Assembly (NCBI RefSeq): GCF_002795805.1
Contig: NZ_CP018799.1
Location: 1,853,001 to 1,917,000, forward strand
Reading direction: 5' to 3'
From: Mariprofundus aestuarium
Lineage (GTDB): Bacteria; Pseudomonadota; Zetaproteobacteria; Mariprofundales; Mariprofundaceae
DNA: 64,000 nt
The notes beneath the pieces are model-generated. The model saw only the letters and a program-made list of their open reading frames with translations. It did not search any database and was not told where the DNA came from. Made by a program: the position numbers and the translations under genes. Positions 3,917 through 21,520 of this stretch are shown one piece after another. Within the stretch, counting starts at the first letter, position 1. Every line of letters starts with the position of its first letter.

Positions 3917-3921
3917 GATTG

Positions 3922-5151
3922 TTACCTGTTAACTGCGTACAGTTTTTGATCAGCCACAGAGTCTGCTTCCGGTTGAACTGCTGCCTGGTCGCTGGTGCTC
4001 TTGATGCGCCCCATCTTCTCGAAAAATTTTACGCTGGCACCAAACAGGGCAGATGCGAGTTTCTTCTGATGCGCCCGGCTTTTCAGTTTCTTCTCCCGGG
4101 CAGGGTTGGAGATGTAGTCCAGCTCAACCAGGACACTTGGAATCTCCATTGCTCCGAGAACATAAAAACGGGCACGTTTAGGGACATCATATTTGATCGG
4201 GCCTGCACCCTTCAACTTACCAATAATCGATTCGGCGAGAATTTGAGAGCTGTTCAGGCTATCGCGGCGGAACATATCACCAAGAATCTGAGTCACCATC
4301 GGGTCATCAACCTGATCGAACTCAACCCCTCCCACCTCATCGGCAGCATTCTCTTTGGCAGCCAATGCTCTAGCCGCCCTGTCTTGAGTGGCCCCTCGCT
4401 CGGAGAGGGTATACACACTAGCACCTTCGACAGTGCGCTGGCGGACGGCGTCGGCATGAATGCTGATCATCAAATCAGCCTTGGCCTTGCGAACAAGGTA
4501 AACCCGTCTTTTCAGTGGTACAAAGTAATCACCACTTCGGATCAGAACCGCCTTCATGCCCGGCGTTGCATCAACAATGCGGGCAAGCTCTTTTGCTACT
4601 GCCAGCGTCACTGTCTTCTCATAGAGCTTACGCGGCCCGATGGCACCGGGGTCTTCTCCCCCATGTCCCGCATCGATGGCAATCACCAATCCCTTTTTCG
4701 ACTTGGGCTCTCCGGCACTCATCGCCGCTTTTCTGGCTTCATCAGGTCTGGAGAGGTCGACCACCAGACGATGGGGCTTACCCTGCATCGGCTTAAGGAG
4801 AAACGAACGGGGCTGCACCTTATCCTTCACATCCATAACAATACGCAGCATGTTGGCCGACGGTTTGCCATGGCGGATACTCTGAAGCACTGGATCAGGT
4901 AGTTTCAAGCCATTCAAATTAGCCTTAAATACGGAGTGCTCCATGTCGATAACAATTCGCTCGGGGTTATGCAGACGAAATACCTTGTAATCGATCTGCT
5001 TGTTCAGATCAAAAACCAGACGGGTATGATCAGGTGCCGTCCACATGCGAACATCGCGCACCACACCATCGCCCGCCATTGCCACCGAGGCAGATGAAAG
5101 CGACAGCGTAAGCGCTGCAATAAGTCCGAACATAGTGGTGATTAACTTCAT
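3922..5151 (-). CDS. N-acetylmuramoyl-L-alanine amidase with AMIN domain (AmiC type)
   Basis: A 409-residue periplasmic zinc amidase that cleaves the amide bond between MurNAc and the stem peptide during septum splitting. After a signal peptide (MKLITTMFGLIAALTL, then an AMA-like cleavage region) comes an AMIN targeting domain (about 30-130) and an Amidase_3 domain. The zinc-site motifs DAGHGGEDPGA, YEKTV, SIHADA and the catalytic-type VELDYISN are all present. ATG 5151 was chosen because it starts directly at the signal peptide; the frame stays open to 5202. It sits between manC and msbA on the same strand. LytM-type activation, as for the E. coli AmiA/B/C enzymes, is possible but not shown here. 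Confidence 0.88.
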   Translation of the reverse strand: MKLITTMFGLIAALTLSLSSASVAMAGDGVVRDVRMWTAPDHTRLVFDLNKQIDYKVFRLHNPERIVIDMEHSVFKANLNGLKLPDPVLQSIRHGKPSANMLRIVMDVKDKVQPRSFLLKPMQGKPHRLVVDLSRPDEARKAAMSAGEPKSKKGLVIAIDAGHGGEDPGAIGPRKLYEKTVTLAVAKELARIVDATPGMKAVLIRSGDYFVPLKRRVYLVRKAKADLMISIHADAVRQRTVEGASVYTLSERGATQDRAARALAAKENAADEVGGVEFDQVDDPMVTQILGDMFRRDSLNSSQILAESIIGKLKGAGPIKYDVPKRARFYVLGAMEIPSVLVELDYISNPAREKKLKSRAHQKKLASALFGASVKFFEKMGRIKSTSDQAAVQPEADSVADQKLYAVNR

Positions 5152-5268
5152 CGTTAGGCAATACTCACTGCATAAGCCATCTTTGCAAGTGAGCAAGGCC
5201 ACAGCCAGAAATAAAGCTATCTATTGGGAGAGCTTCTGGATAACCGCGTCACCCGGGATGATCTCTGT

Positions 5269-6681
5269 TTATGTTCGTCCGTAGATGTCCTCAAAACGTT
5301 CGATATCGTCCTCGCCAAGGTAATCGCCCACCTGCACTTCGATCAGATGCAACGGTATCTTACCCCGATTTTCAAGACGATGGGTCTCACCAATGCTGAT
5401 ATAGGCGCTTTCGTTCTTGGCAACCGTTTTGACCAGCTCACCACAGGTCACGGTGGCAGTACCCGCTACGACCACCCAGTGCTCCGAGCGGTGCTGGTGC
5501 GCCTGCATACTCAGGCGTGCTCCAGGCAGTACTTCAAGGCGTTTGATCTGGTATCCGTCAGCACGGCCTTCAAGCACCGTATAACTGCCCCATGGCCGGC
5601 GTACGGTGACATGCTCAAGGTGATATCGTTCCTTTCCAAGTTTCAGGGAATCAACAATCTCCCGGACCCGCTGGCTCTCACCCGCCCTGCAGAGAAGGAT
5701 CGCGTCAGGTGTTTCAACGGCAATGATGTCTTCAATACCAATGGCAGCGATCAGGCTGCGTTCACTGCGCAGCAATGTGTTATGACAGTCAATGGCCAGC
5801 ACATTACCGCTGATATCGTTACCATTCACGTCATGCTCGGCAATCTCGTGGACGGCATCCCAACTACCAACATCGGACCAGCCGATATCTGCGGGCACCA
5901 GTGAAACACGCTGTGATTTCTCCATGATGCCGTAATCGATAGAAACATCCGGCATCTTATCAAAGGAGTCGCGCACTACCTCCTGCCACAACTCTCCGCC
6001 GTTCCAGCGCGCTCTCATACCATTCAAAAGCGCAGTCATTTCTGGGATATACTTTTCCACCTCTTCAAGAATTACTGAGGCCTTCCAGACAAACATGCCC
6101 GAGTTCCAGTAGTAGTTGCCGTCATCCAGCATGCGTTGGGCATTTTCAAGGTCAGGTTTCTCAACAAAACGCAGTACATTCTGGATATCGCCTTGACCGG
6201 ATGCTTCGGCCTGAATATACCCGAAACCTGTTTCAGGCTGGGTTGGAACAATTCCAAACGTCACCAGTCTGTCGCCCTGGGCAACCTCTACGGCCTTGTT
6301 CAGGCACGCCTGAAAAGCATCCTTGTCAGCCACAATATGATCAGCGGGCAGAACCACCATAATCGGATCATCTCCACTGAGGTCCTGCATCAGGGCAGCA
6401 GCCACAGCAATTGCAGGCGCCGTATTACGGCCACAGGGTTCCATAATCTGATTCAAGCCTTCAAGCTCCGAGAACGCCTCACCTGTCGCATGGGACTCAC
6501 CTGTCACCACCCAGACATCATCCTTCGCCACTAACGGAGAAAGGCGTCCTATCGTAGCGCTGAGCATACTGGCTGCACCACTTAGCTTCAGAAACTGCTT
6601 GGGCAGCTGCTGCCTGGAGAGGGGCCACAAGCGGCTTCCTGATCCACCGGCCAGAATGATCCCCTTAACTGATATACTCAT
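5269..6681 (-). CDS. manC: Mannose-1-phosphate guanylyltransferase / mannose-6-phosphate isomerase
   Basis: A 470-residue bifunctional enzyme of the ManC/AlgA/CpsB type that makes GDP-mannose from mannose-1-phosphate and interconverts fructose-6-P and mannose-6-P. The N-terminal nucleotidyltransferase has LAGGSGSRLWPLSR and LPKQFL, plus the FVEKP sugar-binding segment. The C-terminal cupin (about 350-470) contains RPWGSY, SMQAHQHRSEHW and GETHRLEN metal-site motifs. ATG 6681 is preceded by a strong GGAGGAG; an upstream in-frame start at 6696 is less likely. GDP-mannose could feed the surface polysaccharides or the stalk polymer encoded next door, which is inference. Confidence 0.92.
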   Translation of the reverse strand: MSISVKGIILAGGSGSRLWPLSRQQLPKQFLKLSGAASMLSATIGRLSPLVAKDDVWVVTGESHATGEAFSELEGLNQIMEPCGRNTAPAIAVAAALMQDLSGDDPIMVVLPADHIVADKDAFQACLNKAVEVAQGDRLVTFGIVPTQPETGFGYIQAEASGQGDIQNVLRFVEKPDLENAQRMLDDGNYYWNSGMFVWKASVILEEVEKYIPEMTALLNGMRARWNGGELWQEVVRDSFDKMPDVSIDYGIMEKSQRVSLVPADIGWSDVGSWDAVHEIAEHDVNGNDISGNVLAIDCHNTLLRSERSLIAAIGIEDIIAVETPDAILLCRAGESQRVREIVDSLKLGKERYHLEHVTVRRPWGSYTVLEGRADGYQIKRLEVLPGARLSMQAHQHRSEHWVVVAGTATVTCGELVKTVAKNESAYISIGETHRLENRGKIPLHLIEVQVGDYLGEDDIERFEDIYGRT

Positions 6682-6703
6682 ATCTCTCCTCCACAAATAA
6701 TAA

Positions 6704-7975
6704 TCATGCAGCCCCTTCCTGGTTTCCCTCAGAGTTTTTGCTCCACTGCTTAAAGCGTCTGCTTACATTCACGGTCACAAACAGCCACAACAGGCAGAGC
6801 ACGATATTTGTGCCAACAAGAAACATCGTTGGCAGGGCCAGCACAGAAATGACAATAAAAATGACGCCACCCTGGATCAGATCGCCAAAGCGGGTGAAAA
6901 AGGTGTTAACGGCAAGCATGCCCTCATAACGTGTAAACCTGTCCAGCGGCAGAAAGAGTATCTGCTTGGTCGTGTTTGCCACTGAATAGTCGATACTATT
7001 ATCTGCCATTTTAACAATCGCAAACCAGGCCAGTACAGGGAAGGCCAGCACTGAGATATACATTCCCAGATTTATTACAGCCAGACTGATCAGCGCACCA
7101 CCCACTCCGATCGCCTGATATAGTGGCCGGACAACAAATGCCTGCAGGACAAGCGTGGCAATATTCACATAAAGATAGAAGGTAGAGTAAAATGCACCGA
7201 TTTCACTGCCGCTATTCTCAGCGGTGACAAAGTCAGCCAGAACAAACTCACCGGTTGAGTTAATCAGATTCAGCAGTACGACTGATGCTGCAATCCAGCG
7301 CAGATAGGGAACATCCATCACCCGTTTCAGCCCACCGAGCATATGCTGAATCGACTCTTCATCCGACTGTTCATGGTGGTCCTTGCGCATATCAGTCTTG
7401 GCGCCCGGCATAATCACCGCCACAACCAGCATAATGATTGCCAGGATCATAAGCCCATATGCACCCATCTCAAGGTAGAGGGTTTTTGCAACCATGGAGC
7501 CAATCATCGTACCAAGTGAGCCTCCAATCGCAATATACGAGGTCAGCCTTTTTCCCTTATCCACACAATGATAGTCGCTGACCATCGTCCAGAACTGGGA
7601 GATCTGAACAACCGAAAAAATGCCGAGCCAGATAAAGAAAGGCACGCCAATATCCATGCCTGATGAACCAAGCAGGTAGAAAACCCCGATATTTGCTGCC
7701 AGAAAGATGGTGACGATATGGAACAGCTTATCGCCATGCAGGTGTTTTATAATGTGACTGTAAAACGGCACTAGGAACAGCAACATCGCAGCCTGAGCAG
7801 CCAGCGCATAACTCCTGATCTCGGCGCTACCGCCGTCGAGAATCAACTCCTCGCGGACAGGTTTCAGCAGGTAGTATGCCAATAGAATCAGAAACAGACG
7901 GATAGCAAAGCGGAGTGTTGCAACACCCTCTGGGCTGCTCATATCCTGCCACACCTTAGCTATCAGTTTCGTCAT
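6704..7975 (-). CDS. Multi-pass transporter resembling NTP/NDP translocase (TLC/Npt) family
   Basis: A 423-residue integral membrane protein with about ten to twelve hydrophobic helices. The N-terminal region with YYLLKPVREELIL resembles the signature of ATP:ADP antiporter-like (TLC/Npt1) proteins, which are also found in some free-living bacteria. Other segments (TSYIAIGGSLGTMIGS, DRFTRYEG) fit the MFS-like fold of that family. In free-living bacteria the substrate is generally unknown, so nucleotide exchange should not be assumed. It lies 22 bases upstream of manC and heads the manC-amidase-msbA operon. A short tail ends with NSEGNQEGAA. A generic MFS transporter is the alternative. Confidence 0.65.
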   Translation of the reverse strand: MTKLIAKVWQDMSSPEGVATLRFAIRLFLILLAYYLLKPVREELILDGGSAEIRSYALAAQAAMLLFLVPFYSHIIKHLHGDKLFHIVTIFLAANIGVFYLLGSSGMDIGVPFFIWLGIFSVVQISQFWTMVSDYHCVDKGKRLTSYIAIGGSLGTMIGSMVAKTLYLEMGAYGLMILAIIMLVVAVIMPGAKTDMRKDHHEQSDEESIQHMLGGLKRVMDVPYLRWIAASVVLLNLINSTGEFVLADFVTAENSGSEIGAFYSTFYLYVNIATLVLQAFVVRPLYQAIGVGGALISLAVINLGMYISVLAFPVLAWFAIVKMADNSIDYSVANTTKQILFLPLDRFTRYEGMLAVNTFFTRFGDLIQGGVIFIVISVLALPTMFLVGTNIVLCLLWLFVTVNVSRRFKQWSKNSEGNQEGAA

Positions 7976-8125
7976 TACTCACCGTTTATCTTCATATGCG
8001 ATTGTTCAGCCCGTTCCGATATTTCCGGAACTGTCTGTTCTCCAGACCCTATCCATCTGCTTGACTTATTTCACCTTCAACAAGCATGCATAGTTTTCCA
8101 AAAGAAGGTAATGATCTACATAAAC

Positions 8126-8154
8126 AGGGAACCCCGGTTCTTCTGGGGCTCCCT
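8126..8154 (-). terminator. Terminator at end of the sfz operon
   Basis: An inverted repeat, GGGAGCCCC pairing with GGGGTTCCC on the minus strand (one G-U wobble) across a nine-base loop, followed on that strand by a T-rich stretch. It lies about 75 bases after the stop of sfz6 and before the 7975 gene. The intergenic interval 7976-8227 holds nothing else that I can identify. Confidence 0.75.
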
Positions 8155-8227
8155 TTATGCATTTGCCATCAGTCAGCCATTCGCTGCAGTACTCAGTAGC
8201 CTTATACAACTACGCCAACGGAAGGAG

Positions 8228-10216
8228 TTACCTGTTTACAGGCACACTCCACAGTGGTGATTCGGCTGCAGCGCAGGCAATGAAGCGGTAGATCCTGCCA
8301 GCATTGATCTGGAAGTTATTCACGGTCAATGTATTGGACCTAGCATTCACTTCCGTTCTCAACGGCTTCCAGTTTTCCCCTGTATGCACCCACAGATTGA
8401 CTTTATGCTCATTTTTTATGCCACCCAGCTCGTTTTTCTGTGAATGCTCATCAAAATATTCAAAGGTGACATCGGCCTTGGAGCTCAGAGAAGGAATCCT
8501 TGAAAACAGCACCCATGACCTCTGGATACACTGATCCGGAGATACGCCTTCAAACATGTACATCGGTGGCTTAAACCCTTCGGCTTCAGTCTGAAAATCG
8601 ACAATCTTGAACGGTGACTTGAAATCAAGCCGGGTCAGGAAATAGCCATATCCCGGGTCATACACGATCAGCGACTTGCCCAGATCAGCTGTGGCAGCCC
8701 TGCCGCTATATGGCTTCATAAGAAGCTTGGCCATAAACTCGTGTTCATCCAGTGCTTGTTTTGCCTCACCAGGCGGATGGTACTCTTCTTTGACTTTAGC
8801 ATGCAAAGCACGCTTCTCAGCATCCTTCTGGGACGCAATAGCTGCATCAGACTCAGCCTTGGCAATATCTTCAGGGTAAAGATCTTCTCCCTTGGTGAAT
8901 GCGATATACTCCTTCATCTGCGGAGTATTCCTGTATGACCACTCAAAGGTGCTAAACAGATTAGCCTCGAGATAAAACGGCCTGGCAATACCAAAATGGG
9001 ATACAGCGTCGTACTGCTCGACAAAGGCCTCGGGGGAGCGTGCACCATGCTTCTGCTTCACCTGACCAGCTTCAAGCACCCTTGCCAGATTTTCAATGCG
9101 GGCATTCATTACCGTTGGTGAGAACCAACCGAATGTCTTTTCCGGGCCGTCTTTCTCTTTTCCGATCATGTGTTTCAGCTGCTTATAGATCTTGCCCTTC
9201 AGTCTCTCATTCAGAAACGCCTTGGCTTTCATCGGGTTGAACACACCCAGATCCGGCGTGTAGTAGTACTGAAAACGATCGTTAAACAGACTCTCAGGAA
9301 ACGGTACAAACTGATCGAATGTCTGCCCAAATGTAAGATCGTAATCCCAGGGAATCACCTTCCATTTTTTGGACTGCCCTGATTTGATCATAAAATAATT
9401 CTTGTTATAGGTATCGCCATTGCTGGTCAAAGTATTAGCTACGATCCAGTTGATCAGCGAGTCATCATCAAAGGAGCTCGCAATGAATGAATCGAATGAT
9501 TCCATCGGTGCCGACTGAACCTGCTTTGCGAACGCCTTCATACTGGAGTGGTCTCCGCCACGTGGTGCAAGCTTCGCCCAGCATTTTTCTGTATCAGATT
9601 TATGCCTGAAATCGCCACAGTAGGTATTATCGCTTGCCTGATAGAGTTCGCTGGAGGAATCGTAGCCATTGCGTTCAAGGAAGCGGTTACCCAGCCACTC
9701 GATATACAAGAAATATCCGATAAACTCACCGTTGATGGTCAGCCTGACGTAATTGGTTTCGGGAACCATCATGCCCATGTCGCGCATCATCTCCCATGCC
9801 ATCCAGCCGCGCATCATTGAGCCATCTGAAGACATTGAGTTGAGCGCGATGTTTTTATAGCCCTTCCACGTGCTTCCCTTGACCTTCAGAATAATCGATT
9901 TTTTCCTGAGGGCGCGGGTAGAACTGCCGAACGACTTGATTCGCCCCTTCAATTCCTCACCATCAATTGAAAAACCGGCTGCAAAGGTAGACTTATCGTT
10001 CGGGTCTTTCAGGAAAAGTATCCTTGCATCCGTATTGTTCATGGAGACATCGATATCGACGACCTTTATCTCCTTCTGGGCATTGGCCAGAGCCTCCTGA
10101 GAGTACCTGAAGTGGCTCTCTTCAAAGGTCAGGTCTGTTGCGGAGAGGGCAGTAAACGGCAGCAGTATCACTGCGCATATAGCCCCCGCCAGATTATTCA
10201 TTTTATGTTTTAGCAT
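8228..10216 (-). CDS. sfz6: Exported CotH-type kinase, last gene of the stalk-formation cluster
   Basis: A 662-residue exported protein. After a signal peptide (hydrophobic AICAVILLPFTALSA) there is a CotH kinase domain (about 50-330) with the substrate-loading region GWMAWEMMRDMG, the turn NGEFIGYF, and the catalytic/metal motif IPWDYDLTFG near residues 290-297. CotH proteins are atypical secreted kinases, named for a spore-coat protein kinase. The C-terminal 300 residues are beta-rich and unrecognised. ATG 10216 follows GAGGT by seven bases; ATG 10231 is an alternative. The start lies seven bases after the sfz5 stop, so the genes are coupled. Its position as sixth gene fits the sfz cluster entry assigned to cell-wall manipulation. 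A role in modifying the stalk matrix is inference. Confidence 0.78.
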   Translation of the reverse strand: MLKHKMNNLAGAICAVILLPFTALSATDLTFEESHFRYSQEALANAQKEIKVVDIDVSMNNTDARILFLKDPNDKSTFAAGFSIDGEELKGRIKSFGSSTRALRKKSIILKVKGSTWKGYKNIALNSMSSDGSMMRGWMAWEMMRDMGMMVPETNYVRLTINGEFIGYFLYIEWLGNRFLERNGYDSSSELYQASDNTYCGDFRHKSDTEKCWAKLAPRGGDHSSMKAFAKQVQSAPMESFDSFIASSFDDDSLINWIVANTLTSNGDTYNKNYFMIKSGQSKKWKVIPWDYDLTFGQTFDQFVPFPESLFNDRFQYYYTPDLGVFNPMKAKAFLNERLKGKIYKQLKHMIGKEKDGPEKTFGWFSPTVMNARIENLARVLEAGQVKQKHGARSPEAFVEQYDAVSHFGIARPFYLEANLFSTFEWSYRNTPQMKEYIAFTKGEDLYPEDIAKAESDAAIASQKDAEKRALHAKVKEEYHPPGEAKQALDEHEFMAKLLMKPYSGRAATADLGKSLIVYDPGYGYFLTRLDFKSPFKIVDFQTEAEGFKPPMYMFEGVSPDQCIQRSWVLFSRIPSLSSKADVTFEYFDEHSQKNELGGIKNEHKVNLWVHTGENWKPLRTEVNARSNTLTVNNFQINAGRIYRFIACAAAESPLWSVPVNR

Positions 10217-10223
10217 ATCTACC

Positions 10224-11081
10224 TCAGTCATCCCAGCTGTAAGTGACAGACAAAGTTCCAAACGTGGATGCACTGATATTGCGTCCCCATACGGTTTGGC
10301 CAATTTTCACAGCGCCCGTCCACTGCTCTGCAAGCCTTCGCGAGTACTTGGCAGAAATGATGCCAGCATCATAGTCACCGGAGTTGCGAAAGAAGCCAGC
10401 GGCAGGAATAAGCTCCGGAGTGTGGTCCTTGAGTGAGAGCTTAAGAACGCCCTCAAGAACAACCCGGTTGTCACCATTTTCATCCAGACGCCATGACCAC
10501 TTTGCGTAACTCTTCCACTGTGTAGCCGGAGATCCAAACCAGTAGTTAATACCCGTTCCGAACTCCCCGTAGGAGGGCATTGACTCTTCCCAACCAGTAT
10601 TCTGGGTTGAAATGGCGATGCCTCCCCAGAGTCCGAGTTTCCCATAACCAAGACGGTTTGCTTTAGTGCTGTCATAACCAGTAGGAACAGTTAGCGCCAG
10701 CTCCCAGGTTCTTCCATTACGGGTGTTATCTAATCGGCCACGAATACCCAGCTGAACATCACCAATACCGGCTGTTTTGCCACCTACACCGCACGACTGA
10801 TTGGCAAGTGAGGTGTTGGCGAAAAAGTTAGTATAGTACGAGTAGCCGTATGTGTAGGAGTGGCCCCAGCTGTAATCCTTTGAAGTACAGCCCTGCGCCA
10901 CGCGATTCCTGTTCTGGTTAAACCAATCAGTAGCAGTCGAATATGTAATACCAGTAGTATACATGTTCTGCCCCTCAGAGAGCATGTACGCGCTGGCATG
11001 AGCCGATTCTGAATGAACAGATAGTCCGCTCAATACAATCAATGATGCTGTCGTATAACCGAAAAAATTCTTAATTTTCAT
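10224..11081 (-). CDS. sfz5: Outer-membrane beta-barrel-like protein of the stalk cluster
   Basis: A 285-residue protein with a signal peptide (TTASLIVLSGLSVHSESAHA) and a mature part dominated by alternating polar/aromatic strands. Examples are GIGDVQLGIRGRL, WELALTVPTGYD, GKLGLWGGIAIS and WKSYAKWSWRL, and the end TLSVTYSWDD is typical of small outer-membrane barrels of the phenol-degradation porin-like type. An early segment is rich in Tyr, Ser and Gly and has two cysteines that could form a disulfide. ATG 11081 is preceded by a G-rich tract; an in-frame GTG at 11090 is possible. The published cluster lists this position as unknown function. I infer a barrel and possibly the polymer exit route. 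Confidence 0.68.
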   Translation of the reverse strand: MKIKNFFGYTTASLIVLSGLSVHSESAHASAYMLSEGQNMYTTGITYSTATDWFNQNRNRVAQGCTSKDYSWGHSYTYGYSYYTNFFANTSLANQSCGVGGKTAGIGDVQLGIRGRLDNTRNGRTWELALTVPTGYDSTKANRLGYGKLGLWGGIAISTQNTGWEESMPSYGEFGTGINYWFGSPATQWKSYAKWSWRLDENGDNRVVLEGVLKLSLKDHTPELIPAAGFFRNSGDYDAGIISAKYSRRLAEQWTGAVKIGQTVWGRNISASTFGTLSVTYSWDD

Positions 11082-11098
11082 ATTCCCCACCCCACAGT

Positions 11099-12205
11099 TT
11101 AATTATTCCAATACTGCCTAATCATAATTTCAGCCGGCTTATTCTGAACGGTATAATCAATATCGCTCTCACCACCGGCGTATGGATCACTATACCAACT
11201 CCAAAAAAAAACCCCGTCGACAAATTTCAAGCGTTTAATCGCATTCAACCATGCCGCCACTGCAGCCGTCTGCATCGTCATATCGGGCCGGTGCCTGTTT
11301 TTATCCAGCGATTTCCACTCCCACGGCTGACTTGAAGAGCCTTCCGCAGAAGGCATGCCAACTTCCAGTAACCATACAGGTTTACCCCTGTGGTTTTTTA
11401 CAGCCTGGCTGAGCTTGTATAAATTCAGCTCAATATGGGCAAGCATCTCATCATATTCACCCATATCTCCAAGTGCCGGATATGATGAAATACCGATCAC
11501 ATCCAGCTGCTGCCAGTAAGGGAACCTTTCAACCCCCTCAACATTGTGTGCCGCATAGGTCAACACACCCCTGAACTCTCTTCGAAGTTGCGTGATCAAC
11601 TCCGGCCATGGCAGATCCTTGGCAAGCTGTGACAGCTCAGTTCCAATCACAAAGGCCTCTACCCCTAGGTTTTGAGACAACCTTGCATACCTGATTAGTT
11701 GGGCCGAATAGTTCTTGAACCAGAGCTCCATCTGATCATGGTTACTGAAGAATATTCCGCCTGCCCATGACCCCCTTACCAGAATCTGTGGTTTTACAAC
11801 TACCTTTAACCCCAACTGATGTGCAGTTTCAATGGCCTTAATCAGCTGTACATCGGTTACATTGTTTGCAGCCCGAACATCTGTGGCGTTTGGACCGCTC
11901 TGCTGCATAAATGGAATCAGAGCTACTGAATTGGCACCAACAGCTCCCATTTTTATCAGCGAACGCCTTGCTCCAGGGGAGTTCCATGCAACCCTCGATG
12001 TCTGCAACGCATTAAACCCTCGCCACGCAGTCTCATGGGAAGAGCCTGATGCATAGTGTCGCCGTTTCGCAGCTGGCTTCGCAACCGGCTTTTCAGCCGT
12101 CGCTTTAGTCGAACCTGCGTGAGGTACGGCAGCATGGTTGCCTGCTTTGGCCGAACACCCCCCGATAGCAATCAGCATCCCAAGAAGAAAGACCAGCTTC
12201 GACAT
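11099..12205 (-). CDS. sfz4: Lipoprotein with glycoside-hydrolase-like TIM barrel
   Basis: A 368-residue lipoprotein: the first residues end in a lipobox I-G-G-C with the cysteine at 17. An Ala/Lys/Pro linker follows, then a TIM-barrel domain similar to GH113/GH5-like hydrolases. Candidate catalytic acids are the Glu of GTELSQ (about 190) and the Glu of WLLEVGMPS (about 281). Conserved-looking substrate-site aromatics are in GISSYPAL and FFWSWYSDP. It may trim or release polymer at a membrane surface; the substrate is unknown. ATG 12205 overlaps the sfz3 stop as TGATG, which indicates translational coupling. It corresponds to the carbohydrate-hydrolysis member of the sfz cluster. Confidence 0.78.
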   Translation of the reverse strand: MSKLVFLLGMLIAIGGCSAKAGNHAAVPHAGSTKATAEKPVAKPAAKRRHYASGSSHETAWRGFNALQTSRVAWNSPGARRSLIKMGAVGANSVALIPFMQQSGPNATDVRAANNVTDVQLIKAIETAHQLGLKVVVKPQILVRGSWAGGIFFSNHDQMELWFKNYSAQLIRYARLSQNLGVEAFVIGTELSQLAKDLPWPELITQLRREFRGVLTYAAHNVEGVERFPYWQQLDVIGISSYPALGDMGEYDEMLAHIELNLYKLSQAVKNHRGKPVWLLEVGMPSAEGSSSQPWEWKSLDKNRHRPDMTMQTAAVAAWLNAIKRLKFVDGVFFWSWYSDPYAGGESDIDYTVQNKPAEIMIRQYWNN

Positions 12206-13704
12206 CAAATTTTCCTGAATACACGCCAGATATTATCGTTGTAAACAAGCTTATATCCTTTCATGCCTTCCCTATACAAAAGTGGATAACGCATACTGAT
12301 CTTGTCTCTCTTGCCGACTGCAGAGTCCGGATCTGGAACCACAATCTGTTCAATATCAGGATATTCATGATGCAGTGCGATTTTAAACTTACTGGTGAAT
12401 GAGAGAAGTAGCCCTTCAGCATCCCCCCTGGCAACCATGGCCTTGTAACCACTGCGTTCGTCCAAAAGGGTTACACGGCGATTCTCATCCAGCCAGCGGC
12501 CAAGTCGCAGAGAGCCATCTTCGTCTGCAACCATGACACGCTCACTGCTGAATGCGTTGACCCACCTGTTCATGTTTGGATCGGCCGACTCCATAAATAT
12601 CCACCAGCCACCGACTAGACTGACGACAAGGAAGGAGATGACACTCCAGTAGACTCGCTTACGCGCCATATCAAGGAAGGTGATCTCCGCCAGAATACTG
12701 GCATTGATCAGCACGAGAATCTCCATGGGATGGGAGAGATAGTATTGATCGGTTGCCAGCGCAATCGCCAGCAGGGGATGCACAAAGAGCACAAAACTTG
12801 CCCTGAAACGCAAACCTTCATCCCATGTACTAAACAGGAAGTAGATGATGATTGGATAGGCTACCAGCGTATATCCTGCTGCTGCAATCAGTGCCTCGAA
12901 AAAACTACCTCCGAAATCAACCAGCCATGGATACTTGAACATCTCCATGTAGCCACCCAAAAACATGGAATCTGGGTCTTGAATGAAGTGAAAAAACTCC
13001 GATTCAAACACCCAGTTAAGCCATGCCCATGCGAGTACGGAGAAGAAGAACGGCACAGATAGAATGAGATAGATACTGATCGGCGATGCCATCAGCAGCC
13101 TTCTCGGTGCAATTACGGCCAGCATCGGCAGCAGTGCAACGAACAGGAATACTGCTGAACCATCCACAAAGAAGAAGACTGCAAGGATGATACTGAGGGA
13201 GATATAGGCATGAACATCGTGCTCAGCGATCATATTCTGGCATGCATGATAGAGCAGGTAGAACATCAGCATGCTCATTGCCAGTTGACTTCCGTTTGTC
13301 GCCCCCCATAAAAAGGCAGGATGGGACACCAGCAGGAAAACAATCAGCAGTCGTTTATAAGCAACAACTTCAAGGTGGCGCATGTGGTAGAGAAACACCC
13401 CGATCAGTCCGCAGGCAAACAGAACAGAAACAAAATAGGGTGCCGCCCCGAAGGATGTACCAGGCAGGTAGTAAAATGGCACCAGTGCATAAAGCGGCAG
13501 GTGCGGATATAGCATGCTCAGGTTTTCCAGTCTGATCTCTTCCGCTCCCAGCACACCCAGCACTTTTGCCCAGCGATGTGAAGCGCCATCAAACATGAAA
13601 CCATGAGACAGTAACCAGGCCGTCAAAGCAGAGAGCGCTATGACCGTCATGACAACGATAACCACATTATCCCTGTTACGCTGGTGCATCAGGTAGGCGC
13701 TCAT
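12205..13704 (-). CDS. sfz3: Multi-pass membrane protein, possible GT-C-type glycosyltransferase
   Basis: A 499-residue polytopic protein. About ten hydrophobic helices occupy residues 15-400, and a soluble tail of about 110 residues ends in NDNIWRVFRKI. After helix 1 comes a large extracytoplasmic loop with acidic residues and YPHLPLYALVPFYYLPG, a layout reminiscent of lipid-sugar-dependent GT-C enzymes. No definite catalytic motif can be named, and the cluster literature lists this gene as unknown. ATG 13704 overlaps the sfz2 stop (ATGA) and is preceded by GGGGGAG, so it is coupled to sfz2. The GT-C idea is inference; a flippase or scaffold are alternatives. Confidence 0.7.
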   Translation of the reverse strand: MSAYLMHQRNRDNVVIVVMTVIALSALTAWLLSHGFMFDGASHRWAKVLGVLGAEEIRLENLSMLYPHLPLYALVPFYYLPGTSFGAAPYFVSVLFACGLIGVFLYHMRHLEVVAYKRLLIVFLLVSHPAFLWGATNGSQLAMSMLMFYLLYHACQNMIAEHDVHAYISLSIILAVFFFVDGSAVFLFVALLPMLAVIAPRRLLMASPISIYLILSVPFFFSVLAWAWLNWVFESEFFHFIQDPDSMFLGGYMEMFKYPWLVDFGGSFFEALIAAAGYTLVAYPIIIYFLFSTWDEGLRFRASFVLFVHPLLAIALATDQYYLSHPMEILVLINASILAEITFLDMARKRVYWSVISFLVVSLVGGWWIFMESADPNMNRWVNAFSSERVMVADEDGSLRLGRWLDENRRVTLLDERSGYKAMVARGDAEGLLLSFTSKFKIALHHEYPDIEQIVVPDPDSAVGKRDKISMRYPLLYREGMKGYKLVYNDNIWRVFRKI

Positions 13705-15776
13705 TTATCTCCCCCTGCTATCTTCTCACTATTCATCGAGTCCTCGTCCACGTCACTGGTGGTTGCATAGCTGGTCAGACCATGATGGGTCTTCTCCCAA
13801 TAGAACGGGTTGAAAATCAACTGCCAGAGTCCTTTGAATCCAGCCCAGGACATCATGACCCAGTAGAGCGGTACGGTCAGCGCCCATGGCATTAGCTTAT
13901 AGTAGTGACGCTTGAAGCCACTGAGCATAAACAGGTAAACTAGGAATCCGTTGCCGACCAGCAGGTTTATCAGATTGATATACAGCAGTGCTGCCGGGTA
14001 TATCTGGTCAAACATGGTTGTTTGAGAAATAAGCCATGAGAAAAACACCAGCATCAGAATTGGCATGACCAGTGCGCTGATAATTGTACCACCGACAAAG
14101 AACTGGAATCCCCAGAATCCGACATGCCCCAACGTCTTGTAAAACTCGATTGGCCTGCGCATATGCACAAGGTAGGTCTGCATGTACCCCTTCAACCAGC
14201 GTGAGCGTTGGCGAATCCAGTTATGCAGATCATTATTGGCCTCCTCGTAGGTAGTCGAGTTCACAACACCCACTCGGTAGCCCCTCTGTGTCAGACGCAC
14301 ACCAAGATCGCAATCCTCAGTTACATTATATGGATCCCAACCCTGTAGCTCCCTTAGCACTTTCATTTTAAAGTGGTTGGATGTACCTCCCAGAGGAATC
14401 GGAATCTTCAGAGCATCAAGTGCCGGCAGATAGAAATCGAACCAGAGGGAGTACTCCATGGTAAACATACGCGTCAGCCAGTTCTCAGCCACATTGAAGT
14501 AGTTCAACCGGGCCTGGATTACCGCTGTATTCTCAGCCGCTTTCCTGAAGGCCAGCACAACCTTTTTCAGCTGATCCGCTTCCGGAGCATCTTCACCATC
14601 ATAAATGGTTACCAGTTCACCCCTGGAAAAATTAAGCGCATAGTTGCACGCTTTGGGCTTTGTTTTCGGCAATGAATCTGGAACCCTGATGATTTCAAAA
14701 ATACCTTCAAGGGCGAGGTCTTTAGCCGTCTGGATTGTCTCTTCATCATCCTCTTCAAGAATAATCTTGATATCGAGCTTGGATAATGGGTAATCTAGGT
14801 TCCTGAGTGCTTTAGCAAGGTGCGGAAGCGACTCGGACTCCTTGTACATCGGCACAAGCACCGTATAGGTCGGCAAACTTGCATCGCTAACCGCATCAAC
14901 CTCTGCATCGGTAATATAATTATCGAATTTTTTATCGCCCCCCACCCAGGTAAACAACACACGCAAACCAAAGTTGAGGATCAGAAATACTGTGATGAAC
15001 ACATTAATCGCAATCAATGTACCCACAGGCCATATTGCCAGAGAGACCATTGTCACCGTCATCAGGATAGCGAAAAACAGCAGCTGCCTTTCAGTAAACA
15101 CTGTGCTTGCCGAGTATTGCGGCTGATCCCTTCTCAACTCATGAACTGATTTTTCACTGTAATATGCATTGCCACAATTCTGCAGGGTCCAGACAATATC
15201 GAATTTCGACGTCACCACGAAATCAACAGGTCCATCGACTACCTTCTCGACTTCTGCCATTACATTAGCGTCCAAGTCAGCAACTGCCACCTTGGTCAGC
15301 CCATGCTCCTTCCGCCATGGAATGAAGAGGTTATCCGAGTAACTAAGGTAGTGCTCCTCACTCAACAGACTCATATCCGGCGCATCATCAATCAGGTTCA
15401 CAAATGGCTTGTCAAAATGCTCGGCCAAAACCTGATAGAACAAAAATGGCCGCACCCAAGATTTGGAGAGAATGATATCCCCCACTCGGGTACCCCACTG
15501 CCTCTGGATGCCAATAGCCTCATCCAGCCTGTCCTGAGTCAACAGCCCTCTTTCCACCAGCAGGTCACCAATGCGGCCCTTTCTGAAATGATCGGTTAGT
15601 GCATCATAAAGCTGGGATGCAGTGACCCAGCCTTTGGCCAGGATCACCTCTCCAAGCCGCAGGCCTTGCCCTTGCTGTATCACAAGGGCTTCGGCCAGTT
15701 GCTCATCGGTGATCAGCTTCTGTTCCAGCAAGCAGTCACCAATCCTACGAGGTCGTGAAGTCTCCATCTGAGTCAT
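13701..15776 (-). CDS. sfz2: NfrB-like family 2 glycosyltransferase with MshEN c-di-GMP modules
   Basis: A 691-residue inner-membrane polysaccharide synthase. Residues 8-120 contain four repeats matching the MshEN half-motif (RRIGDCLLEQ, RLGEVILAKG, RIGDLLVERG, RVGDIILSKS), a module known to bind c-di-GMP. Helices at about 230-275 precede a processive GT2 domain (about 303-530) with YDGEDAPEAD, the TEDCDLG general-base region and QRSRW at about 523-527, the Q-x-x-R-W signature of cellulose synthase-like enzymes. Several C-terminal helices would form the translocation channel. The architecture matches NfrB of E. coli, a c-di-GMP-stimulated synthase. It starts 14 bases after sfz1, with GAAGGG before ATG. 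The sugar substrate is unknown. Confidence 0.85.
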   Translation of the reverse strand: MTQMETSRPRRIGDCLLEQKLITDEQLAEALVIQQGQGLRLGEVILAKGWVTASQLYDALTDHFRKGRIGDLLVERGLLTQDRLDEAIGIQRQWGTRVGDIILSKSWVRPFLFYQVLAEHFDKPFVNLIDDAPDMSLLSEEHYLSYSDNLFIPWRKEHGLTKVAVADLDANVMAEVEKVVDGPVDFVVTSKFDIVWTLQNCGNAYYSEKSVHELRRDQPQYSASTVFTERQLLFFAILMTVTMVSLAIWPVGTLIAINVFITVFLILNFGLRVLFTWVGGDKKFDNYITDAEVDAVSDASLPTYTVLVPMYKESESLPHLAKALRNLDYPLSKLDIKIILEEDDEETIQTAKDLALEGIFEIIRVPDSLPKTKPKACNYALNFSRGELVTIYDGEDAPEADQLKKVVLAFRKAAENTAVIQARLNYFNVAENWLTRMFTMEYSLWFDFYLPALDALKIPIPLGGTSNHFKMKVLRELQGWDPYNVTEDCDLGVRLTQRGYRVGVVNSTTYEEANNDLHNWIRQRSRWLKGYMQTYLVHMRRPIEFYKTLGHVGFWGFQFFVGGTIISALVMPILMLVFFSWLISQTTMFDQIYPAALLYINLINLLVGNGFLVYLFMLSGFKRHYYKLMPWALTVPLYWVMMSWAGFKGLWQLIFNPFYWEKTHHGLTSYATTSDVDEDSMNSEKIAGGDK

Positions 15777-15790
15777 GACAGCCCTTCAAT

Positions 15791-18148
15791 TCACTTATTC
15801 GAAAGGTTGACGTCATCATCCTCAGTATTGATGTTGCTGTGGTGCACACGCTGTGCATGCAGATCGTCCGAAGTCGGCATCTCTACATCGTGGTCGCTAC
15901 CCTGTTGCTGGCGGCGAGTCAGACGGAAGACATACACGATCGCCAGGCTCAAGAGGAACCACAGCAGACCCAGCAACCAGAAGCGGTACTCGCCAAGCAC
16001 TGCGAACCAGTCCTTCGTATCTGGGTAGTAGACCTCAGCCAAGGTTGGCTGCTTACTGTCAATATTCAGCAGCACACCATGGGCATCTATGAAGGCCACA
16101 TCACCCTCAATCAAGCGCAACTTCTTGTCGAAATCATGTGTAATCAGATCAGAAGGAATCACCAACAGACCATGTGCAGAGCCGTCATTGATAATCTCTG
16201 CGACAGTAATCTTCGGCAGTGCGTTCACACTGAAGAATGTTTGACCATCCCTGTCCTTGATTTCAACCTTACCTTTATCCATGCGCAGCGGCGCATCAAG
16301 GCTATCAAGGTTGAAGTTACCGAATGCGACAAACGGGCCACTTGGGCTCAATGCCTCACTCTCCTTCATGAAGCGAACCCTGGAGTAATCCATAACAATC
16401 GGAAGATCAGAGGCAACGTGTGAGATCAACTGCAGTGCATTCTCAGGGTTGGCCAGGTACTTCTCAGCAATCACCATATCGAAGCCGGAAGAGAGATACT
16501 CTGAAAGACCGGAGAATTTCGTTGGCTCCCTGTCTGTCTTTTTAACAACAATCGCGGTATCCGGAGTGATCTGAACAAAGTCCGTTGGCATCACACCAAA
16601 ACAGTCACCCGATACGATATCATGCTGCACGACAAAGCGGAGGTTGTTGTACTGCTGCTGGTACTCAACAGGCAGCGGTATGGAGTAGTTATGCTTGTTA
16701 CCATCATTCTCCAACCGCTTGGAGAACACCAGTACATCGTTCAGGAATGCATAGAACTCATAGTTTGGATCAGCCTCCCAGCGCACTGGGGCAATAATGC
16801 TCAGGCTCAACATGTCCAAGCGGGTACCTGCTGGCAGATCACGCGGTGCCAGCGTAGTGCTCCATACGGTTTCATTCGCCACATAATGCGGACTTGTGTC
16901 CAGCTGGCTCAGCGGCAGCGTGTAGTAGTCGCTACCGGAGTCTTTAGGCAGAGCCCTCAGGTCGTAAAAACGATCCGGCTTGTTAATATCATAATGCCTG
17001 CCAGCAGCAAGAAGCTCCCAGCGCTCATCAATAAGATACAGTGGCTGCACATCATATGGCTCTGAAACTGCAATAGAAACTGAATTACCTGACTTGATCA
17101 GATTCAGGTTGTCTGTAGGGGTCTGGAATACATCGCCGCTTTTCAGATCAACATAACCTTTCTTCAGGCTCTTGCCTCGTTGATTCAGTACCGAAACAAT
17201 ATCACCCTTCGGAGCAATAACCACATCACCGATTTCAGGCAGCCGCTTGATCGCCACTTCCTTGCCGGCATTGGCCAGTAACTCCATCACGGACATGGCA
17301 GATGCAAACTGAGATGCATCTAGGTTGCCTGCAGGGAGGGAAACGGTCACATTATGCGGCAACATACGCCACGCATCTCGAATTGACCTGTCGATCGAAC
17401 TGTAAGTGATATCCATAGCCGTGCTTGGAAGAATATGGAGGTAGCCTCCACCGGAGCGAATATCCAAGCAGCGGTTCGCATTCACCAGCGTGCCCGACTC
17501 AACGGTCACCTTCACCATACCGTCACGGAACATCGAGCCCGGCAGAACCACACCCACTTCATGCACCAGATTATCCCCTTCGATAGGAATCTGAATCAGA
17601 GGCACATCGTTGGCAAAAACCCTGATATTGGAGAGCTTCATCAGCATGTTTGAGGCGCGGTAGGAGATACGGAACACACCGCCCCTTACATTTGAATCCA
17701 TCGGAGTTTCAAAAAAGAAATCCTGGTGATGACCGGCCTGTGATGCTCTGAATACATGCCCTTTCTTAAAGCCCATGTCGTCAAGCGTAACCGTTCTTAC
17801 CGGCCCCATAGCATTGAGTGCCTTTCTGGCAGATGGAAGAGAAGTAGCCAGTGTGCCAATATTTTTCGCAGCGGTAAGGTCTTTCTCTTTAACCCAACCC
17901 TGCACACCAGATGGCCTGACAGTTACAAGCACCCAGCCAGCCTGGCGCTCCATTTCGACAAGCTTCATGCTTGAGCTTACGCTCATCACCTTTGATGCCG
18001 TATCCGCCGGTCCGGAATAGACCGTAGCCTGTTTCCCGGATATTTTTAGACTATCGCCAATCTTGGCCTCTGCCTGAAAACCGAACAGCAGCACTGCCAT
18101 CGATAGAAAGACAATCTTCTTCATGAAATGTTTTGATTTTATTAACAC
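15791..18148 (-). CDS. sfz1: SH3b plus BcsB-like periplasmic polysaccharide synthase subunit
   Basis: A 785-residue exported protein, the first large gene of the sfz operon. A signal peptide (KKIVFLSMAVLLFGFQAEA) is followed by an SH3b domain (about 35-90; YSGPADTASKV, GWVKEKDL). A long BcsB-type region (about 120-690) has carbohydrate-binding-like beta modules (RVFANDVPLIQIP, FYAFLNDVLVFSKRL). One C-terminal membrane helix (FWLLGLLWFLLSLAIVYVF) is followed by a basic and acidic tail. BcsB partners cellulose synthase BcsA and guides glucan across the periplasm. GTG 18148 was chosen because GGGGGAG lies four bases upstream; ATG 18124, at the signal peptide, has no Shine-Dalgarno site and is the alternative. 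A leading SH3b domain is not usual for BcsB. Confidence 0.8.
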   Translation of the reverse strand: MLIKSKHFMKKIVFLSMAVLLFGFQAEAKIGDSLKISGKQATVYSGPADTASKVMSVSSSMKLVEMERQAGWVLVTVRPSGVQGWVKEKDLTAAKNIGTLATSLPSARKALNAMGPVRTVTLDDMGFKKGHVFRASQAGHHQDFFFETPMDSNVRGGVFRISYRASNMLMKLSNIRVFANDVPLIQIPIEGDNLVHEVGVVLPGSMFRDGMVKVTVESGTLVNANRCLDIRSGGGYLHILPSTAMDITYSSIDRSIRDAWRMLPHNVTVSLPAGNLDASQFASAMSVMELLANAGKEVAIKRLPEIGDVVIAPKGDIVSVLNQRGKSLKKGYVDLKSGDVFQTPTDNLNLIKSGNSVSIAVSEPYDVQPLYLIDERWELLAAGRHYDINKPDRFYDLRALPKDSGSDYYTLPLSQLDTSPHYVANETVWSTTLAPRDLPAGTRLDMLSLSIIAPVRWEADPNYEFYAFLNDVLVFSKRLENDGNKHNYSIPLPVEYQQQYNNLRFVVQHDIVSGDCFGVMPTDFVQITPDTAIVVKKTDREPTKFSGLSEYLSSGFDMVIAEKYLANPENALQLISHVASDLPIVMDYSRVRFMKESEALSPSGPFVAFGNFNLDSLDAPLRMDKGKVEIKDRDGQTFFSVNALPKITVAEIINDGSAHGLLVIPSDLITHDFDKKLRLIEGDVAFIDAHGVLLNIDSKQPTLAEVYYPDTKDWFAVLGEYRFWLLGLLWFLLSLAIVYVFRLTRRQQQGSDHDVEMPTSDDLHAQRVHHSNINTEDDDVNLSNK

Positions 18149-18872: not shown

Positions 18873-18948
18873 TGGCTCCCTGAGCAGGACTCGAACCTGC
18901 GACATATGGATTAACAGTCCACCGTTCTACCAACTGAACTATCAGGGA
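18873..18948 (-). tRNA. tRNA-Asn (anticodon GTT)
   Basis: A 76-base cloverleaf. The acceptor arms are TCCCTGA and TCAGGGA, with a G discriminator and an encoded CCA. The D arm has GTTCAGTTGGTAGAAC. The anticodon stem TGGA/TCCA closes the loop CTGTTAA with anticodon GTT. The T arm is CAGGTTCGAGTCCTG. It decodes AAC/AAU. It is a single-gene unit between a TTGACA promoter and a terminator. Confidence 0.97.
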
Positions 18949-19108: not shown

Positions 19109-21520
19109 TTGAATCATGATGCTATCTGGAAATCGGGCGGGCTTATTGGCATCATTGTTTCGCTGCTATTCCTGACTGGATACAGCAGCCATCTCTCTAC
19201 CTTCCGAACTGCTGACAACCTGCTTTATGACTTCATCTCCCAGAAAAACACTCTTCCTACGGACAGCAGAATCATTCTTGTTGAAGTAGACGCCAGCAGC
19301 AGTGAGCAAAAGTCACATGCAGCCATTGCAGCAGCCATTAACAAACTATCCAATGCAGGTGCCAAACTTATCGCACTGGATATCCTCTACACCGAACCTG
19401 AGCTACAGCCGGAAGACAACAACAGTGGTGAAGCACAGAAGGATATGCTGGCAGAGAATATCCGCCTTGCTGGCAACGTCCTGCTTCCGCTCTATTTTGA
19501 ATTTGGTTCAGAGGTCATACAGAGTAACATCCTTTCGCCAAGTCAGATTAGGCGTTCGACATTCAGACAGATCAACCGCAATGCTACAGCAGCTGTCAGC
19601 GCTTTTATGCTCCATTACCCTTACAGCAACCTATTAGAGGGCGCTGCCGGCTTCGGGCACTTCAACCTGTTTCCTGATCCGGATGGCACTGTCCGCTCAC
19701 ACCCCCTGGCCATTGAACTCTCGGATAAGTTTTATCCATCTATCGCACTAGTACTGGCGGCAGGGGCGATGAACATTCCAACAAGTGACATGCGGCTGAA
19801 TATTGGCACCGATATTGAACTGGGTGCCCTGAATGTCGCCACCGATCGTGATATCCGCATTTACCCGGCCTTTCATACCGATGGCAGCGGCGGAAGTTAC
19901 AGTCGATTCAGCCTCTCCGAGCTTCTTTCAGAGAGCACACCCGCTGACCTGTTTAAGGACAAGATCATCTTGATTGGCAGCACCGCCGACAACAGCTCAA
20001 ACAGCTTCATAACACCATTAAAGCGGAATATGTCGCGCATCGAGTTTGTTGCCCACAGCATTCAAAGCATCCTTAAAGAGGAGTCAGTCATTCGGCCGGG
20101 CTGGACTCTCTACATTGAGCTTGCGCTGCTACTGCTTGCGGGGCTCTACCTGACCCTTCTTCTACCACGTCTTTCTGGTATCGCAGGGGTTGCTGCAACA
20201 GTGACTGCCACTCTCGTACTGCTTATCACAGGCTTCTTTTTGATATCCGCATTTTCTATCTGGATTCAAACCTGCCTGACGGCTCTACTGCTGATTATTG
20301 GCCACCTATGCATCGGCATCAGAGCACATTTTATTGCCAAAGAACAACAGCCCTCCTCAACAAGTGACTCGAATGAAACCAATAAAATGCTTGGGCTCTC
20401 GTTCCAGAGCCAGGGCATGCTGGAAAATGCATATAAAAAATTCCTCATATGCCCGCTAGATGAGGAGATGCTTCCCATCCTGTATGACCTGGGGCTTGCC
20501 TTTGAACGCAAGCGCCAGTTTGACGAAGCAATCAATGTCTATCAGCACATGGCCACCTACAACAGCAACTTCCGCGACATTCAAGTTCGACTTATCAATG
20601 CAAAAAGAAGCAAGGAGGCTGTTTCAGAGAAGGGTTCAAACGATGGGGTGGCCAACCTGCTGGCAGGTGGCGACATCAACCCGACCTTGGGCCGCTACGA
20701 GATATTCAGCGAATTGGGTAAGGGTGCCATGGGGACTGTATACCTTGGCAAGGACCCACAAATCAACCGTCAGGTTGCCATTAAAACACTGGCTCTCTCC
20801 AAAGAGTTTGAGGCCGATCAGCTTGAAGAGGTAAAAAAACGATTCTTCCATGAGGCCGAAATTGCCGGCATGCTCAACCATCCCAACATTGTTACCATTT
20901 TCGATGCCGGTGCGGAACACGACCTTGCCTATATTGCCATGGAGTACCTGGATGGAATCGACCTCATCCGTTACACCCAAAAGGGCAAAACCCTGCCGAT
21001 CCCGACCACACTGAAAATCGTTGCCAAGGTAGCTGAAGCACTTCAGTACGCTCACGACCACGGTGTCATCCATAGAGACATTAAGCCGGCCAACATCATG
21101 ATCCTGAAAAACAAGAGCGTAAAAGTAACCGACTTCGGCATCGCCCACATTAATGACTCGAGTAAAACCAAAGCTGGGATTGTCATGGGCACCCCCTCCT
21201 ATATGTCACCGGAACAGCTTTCAGGCAAAAAGGTTGATGGCCGCTCCGACCTTTTCTCCCTTGGCGTAATGCTCTATGAGATGGTTGCCGGCGTTCGCCC
21301 ATTCACTGCCGATTCAATATCAAAACTGATGTTAAAGGTTGCCAGGGTACCGCATACGGATGTGCGCGAACTTGATCCTGAAGTTCCAGACAGTGTGGCT
21401 GAGTTGATTAATAGCATGCTCGCCAAGAATCCTGAAAATCGCATCGCCTCTGCCCATGAAGTGCTGGATCGCATCCACCAGTGCCTTCAGGAAAACAGAG
21501 CGCAGGAAGGCACTCCGTGA
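19109..21520 (+). CDS. CHASE2-domain transmembrane serine/threonine protein kinase
   Basis: An 803-residue sensor kinase. An N-terminal membrane helix precedes an extracytoplasmic CHASE2 sensor (about 35-310), followed by two or three helices at about 325-415 and a TPR-like helical linker (about 425-495). A Hanks-type kinase follows (about 528-800), with glycine loop LGKGAMGTVYLG, VAIK lysine, HRDIKPANIM at about 654, DFG at about 674 and SPEQL. All key catalytic residues are present. The start is TTG 19109, with AGGAG eight bases upstream. The partner phosphatase gene overlaps its stop. The sensed signal and substrates are unknown. Its closeness to the sfz operon suggests, but does not show, a link. 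Confidence 0.9.
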   Translation: MNHDAIWKSGGLIGIIVSLLFLTGYSSHLSTFRTADNLLYDFISQKNTLPTDSRIILVEVDASSSEQKSHAAIAAAINKLSNAGAKLIALDILYTEPELQPEDNNSGEAQKDMLAENIRLAGNVLLPLYFEFGSEVIQSNILSPSQIRRSTFRQINRNATAAVSAFMLHYPYSNLLEGAAGFGHFNLFPDPDGTVRSHPLAIELSDKFYPSIALVLAAGAMNIPTSDMRLNIGTDIELGALNVATDRDIRIYPAFHTDGSGGSYSRFSLSELLSESTPADLFKDKIILIGSTADNSSNSFITPLKRNMSRIEFVAHSIQSILKEESVIRPGWTLYIELALLLLAGLYLTLLLPRLSGIAGVAATVTATLVLLITGFFLISAFSIWIQTCLTALLLIIGHLCIGIRAHFIAKEQQPSSTSDSNETNKMLGLSFQSQGMLENAYKKFLICPLDEEMLPILYDLGLAFERKRQFDEAINVYQHMATYNSNFRDIQVRLINAKRSKEAVSEKGSNDGVANLLAGGDINPTLGRYEIFSELGKGAMGTVYLGKDPQINRQVAIKTLALSKEFEADQLEEVKKRFFHEAEIAGMLNHPNIVTIFDAGAEHDLAYIAMEYLDGIDLIRYTQKGKTLPIPTTLKIVAKVAEALQYAHDHGVIHRDIKPANIMILKNKSVKVTDFGIAHINDSSKTKAGIVMGTPSYMSPEQLSGKKVDGRSDLFSLGVMLYEMVAGVRPFTADSISKLMLKVARVPHTDVRELDPEVPDSVAELINSMLAKNPENRIASAHEVLDRIHQCLQENRAQEGTP

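Follow-up and report, generated by a model that had tools for sequence, protein, structure and literature searches.

Dread-forming Mariprofundus aestuarium carries a separate sister lineage of the candidate iron-stalk operon

Twisted iron stalks serve as biosignatures, and their genetics consists of presence/absence evidence alone; dreads, which are short, shed iron structures, have no accepted genes in the Zetaproteobacteria. Less conserved homologues of the six candidate stalk genes, sfz1-sfz6, and of four of their five flanking genes have already been reported in Mariprofundus aestuarium CP-5 and M. ferrinatatus CP-8 (PMC8250860), two isolates with closed genomes of 2.54 Mbp and 2.30 Mbp (PMC5513912; single contigs of 2,537,610 bp and 2,301,665 bp in the assemblies used here) and a phenotype described as ‘dreads only’ (PMC6443915; for CP-5 dreads also PMC5513912). 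What, then, does such an operon do in a dread former? A first-pass annotation of a 64,000-nucleotide stretch of the M. aestuarium genome (NZ_CP018799.1, positions 1,853,001 to 1,917,000; hereafter the window, whose numbering is used throughout unless another locus is named) had recognized a complete sfz operon and concluded that the organism makes an iron-oxide-bearing stalk.

All six open reading frames are present, tightly coupled on the minus strand between about 8228 and 18148 and in the annotated order, with neighboring genes overlapping or separated by gaps of no more than about 15 nt. The first, sfz1-D (15791-18148), has a GTG start at 18148 that is common to CP-8, with GGGGAG upstream; it is followed by sfz2-D (13701-15776), sfz3-D (12205-13704), sfz4-D (11099-12208), sfz5-D (10224-11090), and sfz6-D (8228-10213), for which an ATG at 10213 with a signal peptide fits better than the start of the longer upstream ORF. 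A hairpin 3' of sfz6 (about 8117-8161, minus strand; -24.6 kcal/mol, z -5.3) is strong, and its T-tail is weak, which makes the annotated terminator a reasonable call. Beyond it, on the same strand, lie genes for a TLC-family (ATP/ADP-carrier-like) transporter (6704-7975), for ManC of GDP-mannose synthesis (5269-6696; TIGR01479, E 2e-165), and, by profile matches, for an N-acetylmuramoyl-L-alanine amidase and an MsbA-like exporter (2126-5202). The transporter matches PF03219 at E 5e-9 (homologues reach E 5e-19) and the ADP,ATP carrier 9j3n at E 6e-4; the PF03219 matches within the family are above cut-off, yet mostly partial, and similarity to the carriers is modest. At the other end, a tRNA-Asn(GTT) gene (18873-18948, minus strand; ARAGORN) bounds the conserved sfz site on its upstream side. 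A large receptor-like serine/threonine kinase gene (19109-21520, plus strand; kinase motifs recognized by eye) diverges from the operon and is kept beside it in many relatives. The synteny with the published set (Koeksoy et al. 2021, PMC8250860), including the TLC, ManC, amidase, and MsbA neighbors, bears out the annotated homology to sfz1-sfz6, and chance cannot account for the operon, whose gene order is repeated at many loci in Mariprofundus and also outside the class.

Pfam profiles identified BcsB in the first product, GT2 and MshEN in the second, GH113 in the fourth, and CotH in the sixth, with no Pfam match for Sfz3 or Sfz5. Sfz1-D, apparently exported and ending in a transmembrane helix, matches PF03170 (E 1e-9), so that the BcsB part of its earlier ‘SH3b-BcsB-like’ label stands, while the SH3b part is weak (SH3_4, PF06347, E 0.08). 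Sfz2-D is an inner-membrane GT2 synthase by its matches (PF13632, E 3e-22; NF053729, E 5e-31; cellulose synthase 4hg6, E 2e-6), and the TED and QRSRW motifs of GT2 are invariant in Sfz2. Its N-terminus carries two tandem MshEN units (15417-15746, minus strand; RIGDCLLEQKLITDEQLAEALVIQ... and RIGDLLVERGLLTQDRLDEAIGIQ...) that match the published c-di-GMP-binding motif (PMC5013675) in a motif scan, with MshE (5htl) as the PDB match. Sfz2 has the motifs of a c-di-GMP-gated GT2 exopolysaccharide synthase, from which both ligand binding and polymer synthesis are predicted. Sfz3-D is a polytopic protein of a family listed in the literature as of unknown function; its AlphaFold model (pLDDT 87, pTM 0.89) has top Foldseek matches that are all GT-C enzymes (DPY19, OST, ArnT, ALG12, AftB, and PimE), and we predict a GT-C glycosyltransferase fold. 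The lipoprotein Sfz4-D matches PF22612 (E 6e-47) and beta-1,4-mannanases in the PDB (E 5e-27), and both of its candidate catalytic glutamates (in FVIGTE and LLEVG) align with those of mannanases; we assign it to the GH113 (beta-mannanase) type instead of the published GH10. Sfz5-D has a signal peptide and a modeled outer-membrane beta-barrel (AlphaFold pLDDT 80) that resembles the FapF/COG4313 channels (Foldseek 4rl8, E 7e-11; FapF 5o65, 5o67, and 5o68). Finally, the 661-aa, probably exported Sfz6-D contains a CotH domain (PF08757, E 1e-44; Bacillus cereus CotH 5jd9, E 7e-20) with the catalytic Asp motifs, NGDTYNKNY and PWDYDLTFG, and is a predicted kinase.

A homologue search of 61 genomes, followed by synteny analysis, separated the Mariprofundus sfz clusters into two types, which we refer to as D and S. 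D clusters occur in CP-5, CP-8, ET2 (contig BDFD01000003), OFTM123, and AMOR20_M1280, with MAG 131-447_005 as a deeper member, and S clusters in PV-1, P3, EBB-1, KV, CG1, ET2 (contig BDFD01000004), OFTM123, and others. Only D is present in CP-5 and CP-8 and only S in PV-1, P3, EBB-1, and KV, whereas M. micogutta ET2 and OFTM123 combine the two. The Sfz2 tree resolves D and S as two clades (100/99 and 100/100), and quick trees of Sfz1, 3, 4, 5, and 6 again place each type in one clade, leaving the CP-5 cluster outside the stalk-former clade in each of the six genes. The M. aestuarium operon groups with those of CP-8 (its nearest relative by Sfz2), ET2-D, and OFTM123-D, and shares the short CotH protein and PWDYD motif of the D type. 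Over the aligned parts, its products are 47% (Sfz1), 66% (Sfz2), 48% (Sfz3), 47% (Sfz4), 34% (Sfz5), and 41% (Sfz6) identical to those of PV-1, below the published minima among stalk-former sequences (50-70%) for all six genes. We conclude that this operon, whose presence in CP-5 was already published, is a new and distinct sister version (D) of the candidate iron-stalk operon (S).

Additional genes were seen around some of these clusters. OFTM123 has a second, partial D cluster (L202, G019:C24), comprising sfz3-sfz6 alone on a contig, and three CotH genes in its genome; PV-1 has an additional sfz1-like gene directly upstream of sfz1 (L041:13257-15017); and in ET2 the D operon faces a convergent reading frame that is open over at least 4,046 codons (L048:1-12141, G020:C3).

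The two versions differ most visibly in the terminal kinase. S-type Sfz6 proteins are 1,454-2,270 aa long, and in both S sequences run through Pfam (PV-1 and ET2-S) six or seven SH3_3 matches precede CotH; Pfam returned no SH3 match for the D type, the deep D member, or the tested beta- and gammaproteobacterial Sfz6 homologues. Of the published stalk-cluster form (1,100 aa or more, N-terminal SH3, C-terminal CotH), the CP-5 protein has CotH only. While NGDTYNKNY is found in both types, the second motif reads PWDYN in all S sequences examined and PWD(Y/F/L)D in the D, beta-, and gammaproteobacterial sequences. As the SH3 array and PWDYN are confined to S, S looks derived and D appears to retain the older architecture. 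The array is untenable as a general requirement for stalks across the Betaproteobacteria, since Sfz6 of Ferriphaselus R-1, which forms twisted stalks, has none. These differences bear on the simplest explanation, that the locus is a plain stalk operon of a stalk-forming strain and that D and S share one function, with divergence as the sole difference. The shared gene order and flanking cassette and the 66% identity of Sfz2 to PV-1 would suit it, but the CP-5 isolate makes dreads only, D and S coexist as separate clades in ET2 and OFTM123, and the architecture and motif of Sfz6 differ consistently; we regard it as very improbable. On the same grounds (dreads only, a D-clade cluster, and an Sfz6 without SH3), the annotated conclusion that this organism makes a stalk does not hold.

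Among the isolates examined, D/S content tracks biomineral type: CP-5 and CP-8, with D, make dreads, PV-1, P3, and EBB-1, with S, make stalks, and ET2, with both versions, makes thin filaments plus some stalks. The name of S-only KV, read together with PMC6443915, suggests that it is the stalk former isolated from Kalo Vig. D may go with dreads and S with stalks, a correlation drawn from few isolates, two of them dread-only and one with both versions, and from one to three evolutionary events. The form that biological rust takes may thus be decided by the version that a cell retains.

How the two versions came to be distributed is suggested by their chromosomal site. D in CP-5 and CP-8 and S in relatives occupy the same place, with tRNA-Asn upstream (ARAGORN: ET2, OFTM123, EBB-1, KV, CG1, OFTM252, and M1282 for S; CP-8 for D) and TLC-ManC-Ami-MsbA downstream; the D copy of ET2 lies at another location. 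An rpoB tree unites CP-5 and CP-8 with S-only KV and G001 (98/98), next to ET2, OFTM123, and CG1. The branching within D and, largely, within S agrees with this tree, suggesting that both versions were present in an ancestor and were then lost reciprocally. Absence of sfz genes from MAGs may reflect assembly gaps. A sharp recombination border at tRNA-Asn was considered as proof of cassette exchange and rejected, as similarity between CP-5 and CP-8 also ends there.

Are these genes specific to iron structures at all? sfz1-4 without sfz5 and sfz6 are widespread (Pseudomonas, Gluconacetobacter, and Azospirillaceae are among the carriers), and Xanthomonas has genes 2-4. Complete six-gene operons occur in gammaproteobacterial and Azoarcus MAGs, usually with a TLC gene immediately after, and Gallionella STF1_75 has all six sfz genes, its ManC and TLC genes lying close by on the opposite strand. 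An sfz5-sfz6 pair apart from sfz1-4 is found in Ferriphaselus R-1 (L200:7289-10317) and a Nitrosomonadales MAG (L201:5498-8445). These pairs revise the literature, in which Betaproteobacteria are described as having neither gene. Whole operons in bacteria that form no stalks would speak against the annotated stalk function, and the six-gene operons of Gammaproteobacteria, Azoarcus, and Gallionella go halfway toward this. Full operons in bacteria without known iron structures likewise weigh against a role in dread matrix, and they would agree with a general, xag-like, c-di-GMP-regulated biofilm or capsule polysaccharide to which iron structures are incidental, other genes deciding between dread and stalk. 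Biofilm is affected in Xanthomonas xagA and xagB mutants (PMC3609779), and the gammaproteobacterial and Azoarcus hosts gave no clear Cyc2 match in a search so insensitive that PV-1 itself scores only E 1e-5. Against such a general role, a search of 14 genomes sampled from other genera of the same family returned no such cluster, and D/S content goes with biomineral type; we consider it rather unlikely. Regarding Cyc2 in M. aestuarium, the PF07396 profile missed it and a motif pattern found a candidate (L140:450-1667, G000 at about 2.4367 Mb) of 405 aa with a CLACH heme motif, weakly similar to the best PV-1 match.

Alternatively, dreads could be the product of a bcsABZC system of the cellulose type, which Kato et al. 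(2015, PMC4643136) put forward for Ferriphaselus, and the D operon be unrelated to them. Ferriphaselus R-1 does have a bcsA(PilZ)-bcsB-bcsZ(GH8) operon (L199:842-11574, G070:C8), which ends in a 1489-aa TPR and CotH protein; this long CotH protein was considered as an S-type Sfz6 and rejected on account of its TPR part and its place in a bcs operon. In an iron oxidizer, then, a second type of polysaccharide exporter also comes with a CotH kinase. In CP-5, however, the only PF03170 match is Sfz1, and CP-8 has none over threshold, while the same profile detected a true BcsB in EBB-1 (G011:C46:6321-8144, E 4e-66; within the genus, only there and in the near-identical M1282 MAG). A cellulose origin of CP-5 dreads is contradicted unless the system is highly diverged, and we hold it to be extremely improbable.

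We favor, as somewhat probable, a reading in which the D operon of CP-5 builds and exports the organic matrix onto which Fe(III) oxyhydroxide settles in the form of short, shed dreads. c-di-GMP would bind the MshEN repeats of Sfz2 and switch on the processive synthase, which with Sfz1 would hand the polymer to the periplasm. Sfz3 may decorate it from a polyprenyl-phosphate sugar donor, and Sfz4 may trim or release the chains; GH113-type Sfz4 and the adjacent ManC suggest that the polymer contains mannose. Exit through the outer membrane would be by the Sfz5 barrel, and the exported Sfz6 might phosphorylate a matrix component beyond the cytoplasm, the resulting phosphate binding Fe(III) and nucleating iron oxide, possibly with ATP supplied by the neighboring TLC carrier. 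CotH kinase of Bacillus polyphosphorylates a spore-coat protein (PMC7821199), and both Fe and P are present in the dreads as well as the stalks of Ferriphaselus, the P being read by the authors as adsorbed phosphate (PMC4643136). The SH3b array of S-type Sfz6 could bind fibrils together and to the cell as a stalk, and D, without the array, would yield dreads that are shed.

A bolder extension, unlikely as a whole, is that D and S are ancient sister versions acting as morphology cassettes that can replace one another. Both would have been present in the ancestor of the CP-5/KV/ET2 group, reciprocal loss would have produced dread-only and stalk-only species, the terminal exported kinase would set shape, with the SH3b array anchoring otherwise shed fibrils as stalks, and phosphorylation of the matrix, supplied by a nucleotide carrier, would nucleate the iron mineral, in parallel to biomineralization by animal secretory kinases.

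BLAST-scored sfz matches in metagenomes do not by themselves signify stalks. The D clade, the cultured ET2 with both versions, the S-specific SH3b-kinase architecture, and the operon in other classes yield testable predictions.

Compared with known systems, the CP-5 operon is closest to the sfz1-sfz6 set that Koeksoy et al. (2021) described in stalk-forming Mariprofundus, with which it shares gene order, domains, the TLC/ManC/amidase/MsbA cassette, and site, and from which it differs in its D-clade membership, 661-aa Sfz6 without SH3 array, and PWDYD in place of PWDYN. Ferriphaselus, which forms both stalks and dreads, has sfz1-4 homologues (sfb1-4, xag-like CDS9-12) and the unlinked sfz5-sfz6 pair, but its Sfz2 is 57% identical, its genes are split into two loci, and it has the extra bcsABZ and TPR-CotH operon. 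The exopolysaccharide operon xagABCD of Xanthomonas encodes homologues of Sfz2 (53-56%) and Sfz4, whereas its counterparts of Sfz1 and Sfz3 are barely recognizable and it has neither sfz5 nor a CotH gene. Escherichia coli NfrB is likewise a GT2 synthase gated by c-di-GMP via MshEN, and BcsAB cellulose synthase likewise pairs GT2 with BcsB; in Sfz2, however, the MshEN units are N-terminal and duplicated, and the partner genes are different. Bacillus CotH, which polyphosphorylates a surface matrix protein, belongs to the same kinase family and shares its catalytic motifs, and Sfz6 is set apart from it by predicted Gram-negative export and by genetic linkage to polysaccharide synthesis and export.
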